The notes beneath the pieces are model-generated. The model had not been told where the DNA came from. It ran no database searches and worked only from the letters and a program-made list of their open reading frames with translations. The position numbers and the translations under genes are program-made. Positions 24,484 to 28,859 of a stretch of 60,195 nt of DNA are shown piece after piece. The first letter of the stretch is position 1; each line of letters opens with the position of its first letter. Origin of the DNA: Sinomonas sp. R1AF57. GTDB taxonomy: Bacteria > Actinomycetota > Actinomycetes > Actinomycetales > Micrococcaceae. The stretch covers positions 452,127 to 512,321 of the forward strand of contig NZ_CP022463.1 in assembly GCF_002224485.1 (NCBI RefSeq), given 5' to 3'.

Positions 24484-25890
24484 TCAGCCGATGATTGGGC
24501 GGTCTTCGGGGAGTCGGTAGAGCCGCGGGCGGCTGGACAGGGCCAAGGCGGTGGCTGTCGTGATGGGCCCCAGCCGTCCGATGAACATCAGTGCGATGAG
24601 CGTCGCCTGCGCCAGCGGTGGGAGCGTCGGGGTGATGCCGGTGCTCAGCCCGACCGTGGCGAAGGCGGAGACGGCTTCGAAGAGCGCCTGTTCGAGTGAG
24701 TGGCCCGTGGTGCGGAGCAGGACCAGGGTCCCTAGGATGACCGCGGCGATACTCAGGAGGGCCACCGTCAGGGCCTGGCGCTGGGCTGGGGAGCTGATGC
24801 TGCGGGGGCCGATGGCGACCTGCTCGTGCCCGCGGATCTCGTTCCACATCGCAAAGGCGAGCACGAGGAAGGTGCTGACCTTGATCCCTCCAGCAGTGCC
24901 GGCACTTCCGCCGCCGATGAACATGAGCACGTCGGTCACCAGCAGCGTCTCAGGCGAGAGCGAGGCGTAGTCGGTGGCATTGAAACCGGCCGTGCGCGGG
25001 AAGACGCCGCCGGCGACCGAGGCCAGCAGCCGCGCCGGGCTGTCCATGCCGCCGAGGGTCTCGGCGCGGTCCCATTCCAGGCCAGCGAACGCGGCCGTCC
25101 CGATCACCAGGAGCGTGAGGGAGCCCCAGACGGTCAGGCGTGTGTGGGTGCTCCAGGCGCGGGGCCTGGTCCGGCGGCCCAGTTCGATCAGGACGGGGAA
25201 GCCGAGTCCGCCGGCGATGACCGCGGTGCAGACGGGGAGGATGATGTAGGGGTCATGGGCGAACTGGACCAGGCTGTCGCTGTACAGGGCGAACCCGGCG
25301 TTGTTGAAGGCCGAGACCGCGTGGAAGGCCCCGTACCAGACCGCCTCGCCTGGGCTGTAGCCGTAGCCGGCCCAGAGCCGAACCGCCAGGACTGCCGCGG
25401 TCAGGGACTCGATGAGCGCGGTGGTCCGGGCGATCCGGAACAGGACAGTGCGCACGTCGCCGAGGTTGAGAGTGCGCGTCTCGGACTGGGCGACCAGCTG
25501 GCGGCGCAGCCCCAGGTTGCGGCACACCATGAGTGCGAGGAGGGTGGCCAGGGCCATGATGCCCAAACCGCCCACCTGGATCAGAGCCATGATCACGGCG
25601 TGCCCGAACGGGGTCCAGAAGCCCGGGGTGTCCACGGTCGCGAGCCCGGTGACGCAGACGGCCGAGACCGAGGTGAACAGGGCGGGCAGGACCGCCCCAT
25701 CGGTGGGGTTGGTCCTGGCCAGAGGCAGCAGCAGCAGACCGGTCCCCGCCAGGATCACGCCCAGGAAGGCCACCGGGACTGAGCGGACGGGGTGCAGCAG
25801 GAGCCGTCGGAGCCTTCCATCACGGGTTCGGCGGATGTCGTCTTTCCCGCCCGGGGGCCGGGGGCGATGTGCCGGGATGCTCTTCTCCAT
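24484..25890 (-). CDS. TrkH/KtrB-type potassium channel subunit
   Basis: A 468-residue membrane protein with four repeated M1-P-M2 units. The four selectivity-filter loops are visible as SAVCVTGLA, SAFNNAGFA, FPRTAGFNA and FATVGLSTG, each with the conserved Gly. Such subunits import potassium with a cytosolic RCK partner (TrkA/KtrA). No RCK gene lies in the window, so the partner is encoded elsewhere. The ATG at 25890 has GGAG ten bases upstream. Its start lies 59 bases after the stop of the APC permease gene on the same strand, so both probably share the structured leader upstream of the permease. Confidence 0.9.
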   Translation of the reverse strand: MEKSIPAHRPRPPGGKDDIRRTRDGRLRRLLLHPVRSVPVAFLGVILAGTGLLLLPLARTNPTDGAVLPALFTSVSAVCVTGLATVDTPGFWTPFGHAVIMALIQVGGLGIMALATLLALMVCRNLGLRRQLVAQSETRTLNLGDVRTVLFRIARTTALIESLTAAVLAVRLWAGYGYSPGEAVWYGAFHAVSAFNNAGFALYSDSLVQFAHDPYIILPVCTAVIAGGLGFPVLIELGRRTRPRAWSTHTRLTVWGSLTLLVIGTAAFAGLEWDRAETLGGMDSPARLLASVAGGVFPRTAGFNATDYASLSPETLLVTDVLMFIGGGSAGTAGGIKVSTFLVLAFAMWNEIRGHEQVAIGPRSISSPAQRQALTVALLSIAAVILGTLVLLRTTGHSLEQALFEAVSAFATVGLSTGITPTLPPLAQATLIALMFIGRLGPITTATALALSSRPRLYRLPEDRPIIG

Positions 25891-25949: not shown

Positions 25950-27347
25950 TCAGGGGGCGGCCGGGGTCTCTTCGTCCGCTTCCGCCTCTGCGGCGGCGTT
26001 GCGGATCCCGCGCGGCTTGCCGGCCCTGGCCCAGGCTGCGTAGAGCAGGGCTCCGATGAGGGCGGCGGCGGCGAGGCTGATCACAGGCAGCCCACGGGCG
26101 AGGTTGGCCACGAGGGTGAAGGCGACCACGACGGCGCCGACGACGTTCAGCACGAAGTAGCCGCGCCGCCCGTCCCGGTGGGAGAAAAGCGCCATGGAGA
26201 CCAACCCGGCGAGGAAGCTCAGGAAGACGGACACCGCATAGAAGAGGACGAGCTCCTGGTCGTTCCCGCCTGCGGCGGCAGTCACGGCCCCTGCCAGCAG
26301 GACGAAGACGACAAGTCCCCAGTATGGGGTGTGGTGGGCGTTGGTCCGGCCGAGGCCGCCGGGGAGGATGCCCACCTTATGCCCCTGTGCGGTGTGGTGG
26401 CGGGCGAGGGCCTTGAGCAGCCCCGGGCCGGCCTGGAACGACGAGCTGGCCGCGGAGAGCAGCAGGAGGGCCGTGACGAGCTGGAAGGCGGCGAACACCG
26501 GCCGCGGGGCCGCGAGCCGGGCCAGCTCCGCGATCTGGGTGCTCTCCTCGGGCGGGATCCCGACGCCCAGATGTGCGGCCTCGAGGGCCAACCCCAGGGT
26601 GATGGTGCCGACGATGGCCAGGGTGAGCCATAGGGTCAGGGTGCCGAAGCGGCTGCGCTGGGGGTCGTCGAGCTGGCCGAGCTGGGCGATCGCCGACGAC
26701 GGCGCCTCGACGCCCGTGGCCAGTGCCATGGCCACGGGGAATGCCAGGACGACGGCGAGCACCGGGGCATGGCCTGGATCGGGGCTCGTGGTCCCGACCG
26801 CCTGAGGCTGGGCGAACAGGCCGTAGCCCAGCACGACGGCGGACACTGCGATGAACGCGACCGTCATGGCGGCAAAGACCAGCCGCCCCAGATGGCCGAA
26901 CCATGTGAGGCCACCGACGACCACAACGAGGGCCAAGGCGAGCAGCAGCCGCCAGGGGGCAAGCGCCGGGAAATAGGCGATGGCCGCTGAGGCGCCGGCC
27001 GAGACGCTGATGGCTATGGTGAGCACGAAGTCCACCACGAGCGCCCCGATCGGCAGGAAGGACCAGCCGTCCCCGAACGCTTCCCCGACGGCGGCGGAGG
27101 CTCCTCCTCCGTGTGGGTATCGGGACACGAGCTGGCGGTAGTTCAGGATCACGAGGGCGATGATCGCCACCACGAGGGCCATGGTAGGGGCAAGCAGGGC
27201 GAGGTCCCCGTTCAGGGCCCGCAGCGCCGCCTCGATCGCATAGGCGACAGAGGACACGGGGTCCGCCATCACCGCGAAGGCGAAGGCCAGCAAGAGCGCC
27301 GGCCGGGAGTGCAGGCGTCCGCGGACGGCCGACGTCTGGCCGGACAT
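25950..27347 (-). CDS. APC-superfamily permease, possibly a potassium importer
   Basis: A 465-residue protein with about twelve hydrophobic segments and the APC fold signature MADPVSSVAYAIEAALRAL near residue 27. No specific amino-acid transporter motif stands out. The SSVAY segment resembles KimA, an APC-type potassium importer controlled by c-di-AMP, and the gene next to it encodes a potassium channel, so potassium is a plausible substrate; this is inference. KimA is longer (about 600 residues) and has a cytosolic domain absent here. The start MSGQTS (27347) has GAGG eight bases upstream; the longer open frame runs into the leader. Expression is probably controlled by the leader RNA. Confidence 0.82.
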   Translation of the reverse strand: MSGQTSAVRGRLHSRPALLLAFAFAVMADPVSSVAYAIEAALRALNGDLALLAPTMALVVAIIALVILNYRQLVSRYPHGGGASAAVGEAFGDGWSFLPIGALVVDFVLTIAISVSAGASAAIAYFPALAPWRLLLALALVVVVGGLTWFGHLGRLVFAAMTVAFIAVSAVVLGYGLFAQPQAVGTTSPDPGHAPVLAVVLAFPVAMALATGVEAPSSAIAQLGQLDDPQRSRFGTLTLWLTLAIVGTITLGLALEAAHLGVGIPPEESTQIAELARLAAPRPVFAAFQLVTALLLLSAASSSFQAGPGLLKALARHHTAQGHKVGILPGGLGRTNAHHTPYWGLVVFVLLAGAVTAAAGGNDQELVLFYAVSVFLSFLAGLVSMALFSHRDGRRGYFVLNVVGAVVVAFTLVANLARGLPVISLAAAALIGALLYAAWARAGKPRGIRNAAAEAEADEETPAAP

Positions 27348-27460
27348 CAGCGCCACCTCGTCACTGGCAGGGCGCAGGGGAAGTGGTAGTACACGGTGGC
27401 CTCCGGTCTCACGGCAGGGCAGTTTCGCTGCCGACCAGACTTCCCGGCTCACCTGGGCCG
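27348..27460 (-). promoter_or_regulatory. Structured, riboswitch-like leader of the APC permease-TrkH unit
   Basis: On the minus strand a basal stem GGUG-A-GCC (27453-27446) pairs with GGCCACC (27401-27395), leaving a bulged A. A one-sided GGGAAG loop follows, then UCUGGUC (27439-27433) with GACCGGA (27408-27402), and an apical GGCAG-CGAAA-CUGCC hairpin (27432-27418). The ribosome-site segment GGUGGC (27357-27352) is complementary to GCCACC (27400-27395), the 3' strand of the basal stem, so the two pairings exclude each other. This is the layout of a translational riboswitch. I cannot assign it to a known class; it does not match the ydaO c-di-AMP consensus as I know it. Confidence 0.6.
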
Positions 27461-27466
27461 ATGCTA
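27461..27466 (-). promoter_or_regulatory. -10 element for the permease leader
   Basis: TAGCAT on the minus strand ends about seven bases before the first base of the folded leader, placing the transcription start at about 27454. The -35 is not clear. Confidence 0.4.
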
Positions 27467-28786: not shown

Positions 28787-28859
28787 AGCCTCCTAGCAGG
28801 ATCGAACTGCTGACCTTCTCATTACGAGTGAGACGCTCTACCGTCTGAGCTAAGGAGGC
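28787..28859 (-). tRNA. tRNA-Thr(CGU)
   Basis: A full 73-base cloverleaf on the minus strand: acceptor GCCTCCT/AGGAGGC, D arm GCTC/GAGC, anticodon stem TCTCA/TGAGA around the loop CTCGTAA, and T arm AGCAG/CTGCT with TTCGATC. Anticodon CGT reads ACG (Thr). The 3' CCA is not encoded. A terminator follows and a good promoter precedes it. Confidence 0.97.

Follow-up and report, generated by a model that had tools for sequence, protein, structure and literature searches.

Which part of the leader RNA of a cation transporter unit in Sinomonas sp. R1AF57 is conserved, and what might that part sense? The leader lies on the minus strand of a stretch of 60,195 nucleotides (positions 452,127 to 512,321 of contig NZ_CP022463.1), here called the window, and precedes genes for a KimA-like permease and a TrkH protein. 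A preliminary description had drawn this leader as a fold with a basal and a second stem, and had proposed that it might sense an ion or cyclic diadenosine monophosphate (c-di-AMP). The R1 model and the distribution of its matches across genomes point instead to a unit of 25 nucleotides, GGUGA-GCC-GGGAAGUCUGGUC-GGC-A, at 27429..27453 of the minus strand. We consider it probable, with real room for doubt, that this putative aptamer is part of a very small and widespread cis-acting RNA switch that turns genes ON, most likely in response to Na+.

The conserved 25-nucleotide unit

As judged from aligned sequences, comparison of the copies shows that a unit of the form GGNGN-stem-GGGAAGNCUGGUC-stem-N is conserved and carries RNA-type covariation. 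Its positions run G1 G2 N G4 N5, stem 6-8, loop, stem 22-24 and N25. In the window copy the strands of the 3-base-pair stem are GCC at 27446..27448 and GGC at 27430..27432, and the near-invariant 13-nucleotide loop GGGAAGUCUGGUC occupies 27433..27445, all on the minus strand. The loop is identical to GGGAAGUCUGGUC in 135 of 198 copies compared, differs at its seventh base only in 61 and differs elsewhere in 2; these counts include the effect of search patterns that themselves fixed most loop bases and 15 bases of the motif overall. Four copies from one genus (L345, L346, L349 and L352), found before nhaA, have ACGGGUC in place of UCUGGUC, and this loop could be a specificity variant.

Two of the three stem pairs exhibit compensatory changes among C-G, U-A and A-U. 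Over 325 distinct places, pair 7-23 is C-G 316 times, U-A six times, A-U twice and G-U once, while pair 8-22 is C-G 321 times, A-U twice, U-A once and A-C once. The G-U, A-C and G-G cells of this tabulation stem from one chance match (L141). Among the columns examined (-9 to 45), positions 5 and 25 covary most strongly, with mutual information of 0.470; the highest value in shuffles was 0.056. The combinations at this pair are U-G (146), C-A (77), A-A (38), A-G (19), U-A (16), U-C (13) and 16 others, so that the Watson-Crick pairs U-A and C-G (3 of 325) are rare. A pairing of positions 3 and 15 was rejected, its mutual information of 0.046 being within the shuffle range (up to 0.078).

Alignment A1 was built from matches with all three stem pairs, leaving out L013, L019 and L050, which lack GGNG, and its 100% pairing is partly a result of this selection. 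Without the stem filter 196 of 198 copies are paired, in a sample with many loci picked by hand from the lists for relatives and for the phylum. The view with least bias comes from a scan of the class, read by eye among the matches listed: seven stems other than GCC/GGC keep every pair, three break one pair, two seem to be chance matches and one contains an N. All of these covariation figures come from loci that were partly chosen by the authors and from related genomes that are not independent. What is found is a conserved aptamer-like sequence with covariation, a general mark of riboswitches.

The unit also has a fixed relation to predicted promoters. In 152 of 196 copies the motif is preceded, at a distance of 6-8 nucleotides, by a TANNNT box, whereas a control interval further upstream contains any such box in 10 of 196. 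The window copy is among the 152: its box, TAGCAT at 27461..27466 of the minus strand, lies 7 nucleotides before GGUG, in agreement with the preliminary description, which had used a -10 hexamer to set the transcript start right at its fold. From this tight spacing, transcripts are predicted to begin at the motif.

Such spacing, together with strong conservation of primary sequence, might also be produced by a DNA site at +1 to +25, either an operator or an initially transcribed sequence, that is read by a transcription factor or RNA polymerase. We regard this explanation as very unlikely. The -10 spacing is equally expected for an RNA that starts at the motif, the stem changes are compensatory, and the preference for non-Watson-Crick combinations at positions 5 and 25 is the opposite of what a palindromic DNA site would favor. 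Terminator-like hairpins are built on the motif, as described below, and its orientation is one-sided. At 101 of 131 places a gene of a reference family reads away downstream within about 400 nucleotides, compared to 3 of 131 in the opposite direction.

Distribution, gene partners and the probable ligand

A second copy in the same genome (L002, G000:C1:1067984-1068008) is alike at 23 of 24 bases and lies directly before nhaA, which was identified by PF06965 (E 2.1e-126). It is divergent from a gene that appears by eye to be acyltransferase-like. In this genome the R1 model, which had the window copy among the sequences used to build it, scores that copy at 46.1 bits (E 1.1e-6) and one other match at 45.0 bits, with the next at 19.8. 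The 19-mer GCCGGGAAGTCTGGTCGGC occurs with at most two mismatches in 116 of 148 related genomes. When the stem letters are left free, the motif is found in 112 of 396 genomes of the phylum and in 258 of 394 genomes of the class, and reversed-pattern controls are almost all zero among the matches listed. With strict filters, the R1 model finds it in 81 of 296 genomes of the phylum.

A scan of named genomes yields at least 119 stretches, including representatives of Streptomyces, Arthrobacter, Nocardia, Amycolatopsis, Frankia and Mycolicibacterium. Among the matches listed are two metagenome-assembled genomes (MAGs) titled Chloroflexi and one of Ktedonobacteraceae (L308). In the phylum of the latter, taken as Chloroflexota, 23 of 301 genomes carry the motif, three of them MAGs known beforehand. 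The Chloroflexota set discussed below comprises 24 places (loci L393-L415) and counts among them a Mesorhizobium match (L271/L396). This match was rejected as a true copy because it seems to be a chance occurrence with no long reading frame after it. One genome (G272, a single 9.5-Mb contig) harbors eight copies, L150, L151, L152 and L153 among them. Of the eight, three precede NhaA genes, two CPA-like antiporter genes and two genes for STAS-domain proteins, and the gene after the remaining copy is unclassified.

The genes that follow the motif were named in two samples. The first comprises 198 places, 195 with a reading frame, and takes names from one or two representatives per single-linkage cluster. 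It contains 137 NhaA, 15 Mrp/NuoL-like and 9 CPA antiporters and six members of the window's KimA-like family; the rest are CitMHS/ArsB-like proteins (3), ABC ATPases (3), CitMHS_2 (2), P-type cation ATPases (2), STAS (2) and CBS (2) proteins and 14 singletons. Two P-type ATPase loci and single PPase and Na/Ca-exchanger loci are among the partners. The PPase singleton (L126) is a fragment whose NCBIfam matches, all under cut-off, mostly carry the name sodium-translocating. The second sample consists of 131 places among the matches listed in the named-genome scan, and a place was counted for a family if a match fell at any point within 1.6 kb downstream. NhaA again predominates (76), followed by CPA (10, three of them weak at 47-53 bits), CitMHS/ArsB-like (7), KimA-like (4) and ABC (4) proteins and one each of Na/Ca exchanger, STAS and CBS. 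The reading frames after L226, L325, L248, L286, L250, L278 and L290 match no reference family; from inspection by eye they presumably encode DUF2254-like membrane, NfeD/YqiJ-like and PEP-synthase-like proteins. Overall, the partner families are chiefly NhaA, then CPA, Mrp-like and NhaD-like antiporters, KimA-like permeases and TrkH.

Because these partners span unrelated Na+ exporters and K+ uptake proteins, which make sense together as a response to high Na+, Na+ is favored as the ligand. Judged by gene partners, Na+ is probably what the RNA binds, and Li+ is the next candidate. In the proposed mechanism, transcription would start at or beside the first G of the motif, and the 25-nucleotide fold would represent the ligand-bound state. 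Binding of an alkali cation, most likely Na+, would prevent terminator formation or free the ribosome site and thereby turn genes ON. High Na+ would then lead to more Na+ efflux through NhaA, CPA, Mrp-like and NhaD-like antiporters, and to more K+ uptake through KimA-like and TrkH proteins.

Several observations tell against this account. At 27 of the 131 places no gene of a reference family was found, although by eye L231 resembles TrkH and L276 has a TrkA-like start. The motif is present at 16 of 30 NhaA loci (L345 and L358 included) and at 5 of 8 close KimA-like homologues, so that 14 and 3 of these, respectively, lack it. The KimA-like count excludes G002, which matches as a fragment with 66% identity over 74 amino acids. 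Finally, the account is assembled from sequence and prediction, and its ligand from genes only.

The same switch might instead respond to Li+, which would make it a third Li+ class, or to an alkaline pH signal; we judge this fairly unlikely. NhaA follows the motif more often than any other partner (76 of 131), and it is the main partner of the Li+-I and Li+-II riboswitches too (PMC9646797). However, the range of partners is broader than NhaA and closer to the spread given for Na+-I riboswitches (PMC9337991). Sensing of pH by a C-A pair at positions 5 and 25 is unlikely because U-G is commoner there.

A different kind of signal has also to be weighed. K+ uptake genes are targets of c-di-AMP in other bacteria, and some partners of the motif (STAS, CBS and NfeD proteins) are not transporters. 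These facts would suit an RNA that is bound by a protein, or one that senses a second messenger such as c-di-AMP as a report of salt or osmotic stress. Nevertheless, this explanation appears quite improbable. Na+/H+ antiporters make up most of the partners, the window gives no match to ydaO in a scan with Rfam 15, and the small size and near-invariant loop of the motif suit an ion site, which falls short of proof. A preference for c-di-AMP as ligand is not supported: the motif chiefly precedes NhaA Na+/H+ antiporters, which point to Na+ or Li+.

Predicted expression platforms

In the Chloroflexota set, 11 of 24 copies have a terminator-like hairpin whose 5' strand holds the motif sequence GCCGG and whose 3' side enters a U-tract; with shuffled tails, such hairpins form in 90 of 2400 cases. 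For example, GGAGUGCCGGG pairs with CCCGGCACUCC ahead of UCUUUU in L412, and GCCGGGA pairs with UCCCGGC ahead of GUUUUUU in L402. The terminator stem and the motif stem share GCC and are therefore mutually exclusive. If the conserved fold is indeed the ligand-bound state, ligand would give read-through, and these would be ON switches. Six of the eleven (L408 and L410-L414) are closely similar, leaving at most six independent cases. The requirement for GCCGG in the stem was added post hoc, after a laxer scan had given 12 of 24 copies against 246 of 1200 shuffles. The reading frames behind the eleven weakly match CPA antiporters in eight cases and the Na/Ca exchanger in one, and match neither in two. 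In L398, L399, L400, L405, L406 and L407, GGAG(G) occurs right after the motif, with a start codon 10-20 nucleotides on. These Chloroflexota-set copies that adjoin a Shine-Dalgarno-like sequence perhaps represent a third kind of expression platform.

In leaders outside the Chloroflexota set, which are mostly from Actinomycetota, modeling makes ON control at the level of translation likely. Complementarity was counted in 236 of 246 leaders. The element CGACC is found near the ribosome site in 85 of 236 leaders and in 110 of 1124 control genes, GACC in 120 of 236 and 276 of 1124, and complements of the motif's 3' half with at least 9 pairs in 25 of 236 and 38 of 1124. The reversed motif, at 7 or more base pairs, shows no excess (27 of 236 versus 273 of 1124). 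In the predicted folds of L090, L061 and L153, the motif segment GGGAAGUCUGGUCGGC contributes to a hairpin that takes in GGAGG and leaves two of its five bases unpaired; the predicted fold of L092 differs from this arrangement. The cost of opening the ribosome site was calculated for 208 of the 246 leaders, those with a start 50-90 nucleotides from the motif. Imposing the motif fold lowers this cost by 3.69 kcal/mol, compared to 0.27 kcal/mol in 300 chimeric controls that carry the same motif on unrelated tails. This joint measure was chosen when the per-base result given below was already known, and the P-values of the opening-cost and complementarity tests ignore relatedness.

Other results run contrary to such switching. 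Outside the Chloroflexota set, terminators occur at 2 of 341 places (one of them L308), below the shuffled rate of 40 in 3410. Complements of at least 6 base pairs are in no excess (150 of 236 leaders versus 714 of 1124 control genes), and the frequency of complementarity of at least 7 base pairs, 39.4%, is within the range for permuted motifs (mean 15.9%, maximum 46.3%). A test for duplexes between motif and tail gives a mean z of -0.43 over 156 leaders, indicating a weak alternative helix. With the motif fold imposed, mean per-base openness of the Shine-Dalgarno sequence, a cruder measure, drops from 0.455 to 0.388 in the 208 leaders, compared to a change from 0.501 to 0.521 in 400 controls. 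In free energy the imposed fold is 15.6 kcal/mol less favorable than the free ensemble (10.7 in controls). Secondary-structure energies therefore do not account for it by themselves, and tertiary contacts or co-transcriptional folding would be required. An expression platform that excludes the aptamer fold, as generally expected of riboswitches, is thus seen as terminator-like hairpins in 11 of 24 copies and elsewhere by prediction, with one measure contrary.

In the window, a GACC element at 27405..27408 of the minus strand is by complementarity a possible alternative partner of the motif's GGUC, in keeping with the enrichment among leaders. This copy reads GAGACC at the site and not CGACC. 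The adjacent Shine-Dalgarno sequence GGAGG (27400..27404) serves a 15-codon upstream open reading frame (uORF) that runs from GTG at 27394 to TGA (27347..27394) and whose stop overlaps the permease ATG (27347-27345) as TGATG. In L090 and L092 this GGAGG stands directly before the permease start itself. With the motif fold, the predicted opening cost of the uORF ribosome site falls from 11.8 to 7.7 kcal/mol, while that of the permease ATG rises from 11.0 to 15.8, which is a further point against the proposed switching. Since the uORF site is eased and the permease ATG is not, control through the uORF with coupling is our best guess. The switch would act on the uORF Shine-Dalgarno sequence, and the permease and TrkH would follow by translational coupling and co-transcription.

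Both downstream genes, on the minus strand, are of the kinds named in the preliminary description. The permease (25950..27347, 465 amino acids) belongs to the APC type and is without a Pfam or NCBIfam family, though plain sequence comparison finds KimA (6s3k, E 9.5e-25). The TrkH cation transport protein (24484..25890, 468 amino acids) matches PF02386 (E 2.4e-51) and scores 309 bits with NCBIfam TIGR00933, under its cut-off of 331. A tRNA gene (RF00005) is located at 28787-28859, also on the minus strand.

The leader sequence is present as first described. UCUGGUC is complementary to GACCGGA and GGUG-A-GCC to GGCCACC, and the basal stem belongs to the predicted minimum-energy fold of the window copy. 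That this fold is itself the functional riboswitch, specific to the window permease, is nonetheless scarcely credible. Leaders of permeases 81-85% identical to that of the window (L061, L090 and L092) have GGCCACC replaced by GGUUUCC or GGUUCCC, yet keep an intact motif. Congeneric and same-family leaders contradict the drawn fold, and the conserved core is found again ahead of unrelated genes, where the tails that follow it differ. The stem of the 25-nucleotide unit covaries; the basal stem is, among the copies compared, peculiar to that of the window. By this sequence comparison, the conserved unit had been divided between the two stems of the drawing. What survives is the reading as a leader RNA that acts in cis on a K+/cation transporter unit and starts at the predicted 5' end; the drawn architecture does not survive as a conserved element. 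Similarly, the coupling of folding to ribosome access is retained, but the GGUGGC read as the ribosome-binding site of the permease lies within the uORF, which the preliminary description had overlooked and which has its own Shine-Dalgarno sequence GGAGG. The basal stem closes over this GGAGG, which fits an OFF state. In terms of the modeled structures, the drawn fold is best read as the Shine-Dalgarno-covering OFF state of the window copy, and the 25-nucleotide fold as the competing ON state. Thermodynamic stability was dropped as evidence for the element: z is -0.16 for 131 nucleotides and -1.22 for 68, which is ordinary to modest, and -2.22 for the 60 nucleotides from the motif start.

Relation to known riboswitch classes

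The failure of the preliminary description to match the leader to known riboswitch classes is borne out by a scan of the window leader with Rfam 15, in which every match is under threshold. Nothing reaches the gathering cut-off for the motif, and up to E 10 the window copy gives only CcsR1 (E 5), Transposase-2 (E 3.8) and HOTTIP_2 (E 0.21, 8.3 of 80 bits). No match up to E 10 is found for the L002 copy, and 20 further loci yield two tRNAs only at gathering. Li+-I, Na+-I, ydaO and crcB riboswitches gave no match in this whole-library scan, which did not run the models singly by accession. A search of open-licence literature, with subscription papers and preprints outside its range, found no description of the motif, its core letters included. 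On sequence grounds, the motif is a candidate for a new class within the ion riboswitches.

The fullest form of the proposal, to which we give slightly less than an even chance, is that the 25-nucleotide RNA would serve Actinomycetota, and part of Chloroflexota, as their principal means of sensing Na+. It would exert transcriptional ON control in one lineage and translational ON control in the other, and so coordinate Na+ efflux with K+ uptake. It would also be an exceptionally small natural aptamer for a monovalent cation, with one 3-base-pair stem and a non-Watson-Crick closing pair. The motif, whose core hardly varies by a letter and has no counterpart in Rfam 15, occurs in 258 of 394 genomes of the class and would be a frequent ion-riboswitch candidate that is easy to test. 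An RNA this small is a practical object for structure determination, through which one could ask how discrimination between Na+ and K+ might be achieved with so few nucleotides. The presence of the motif also gives a hint to the regulation of transporters with poor annotation, the KimA-like/TrkH unit of the window among them.

Four known systems come closest. The crcB fluoride riboswitch is a small RNA that can precede nhaA-type antiporters. It differs in that no Rfam match to it occurs here, and no fluoride exporter is named among the representative partner proteins scanned, though none was specifically searched for. The ydaO/yuaA riboswitch for c-di-AMP has reportedly been found before a K+ uptake operon; it too is without an Rfam match here, and the main partners of the motif are Na+/H+ antiporters. 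The Li+-II riboswitch (nhaA-II, RF03038) is a leader RNA found mostly before nhaA that raises expression as Li+ rises (PMC9646797). The motif resembles it in being a leader RNA with a mostly nhaA context, but the RF03038 model has 84 positions compared to 25 nucleotides. The best score of that model in the Sinomonas genome is 19.4 bits (E 2.8) against a gathering cut-off of 70.4, and none of the six places listed is a motif copy. The Na+-I riboswitch (DUF1646 motif) and the similar Li+-I riboswitch (nhaA-I) have conserved nucleotides split between the base of a stem and a loop (PMC9337991, PMC9646797). The 25-nucleotide motif, with one 3-base-pair stem and a 13-nucleotide loop, is set apart from these two by their descriptions and the Rfam scan, but may be a distant relative. 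It shares with both an alkali-cation gene context and conserved nucleotides at a stem base and in a loop.
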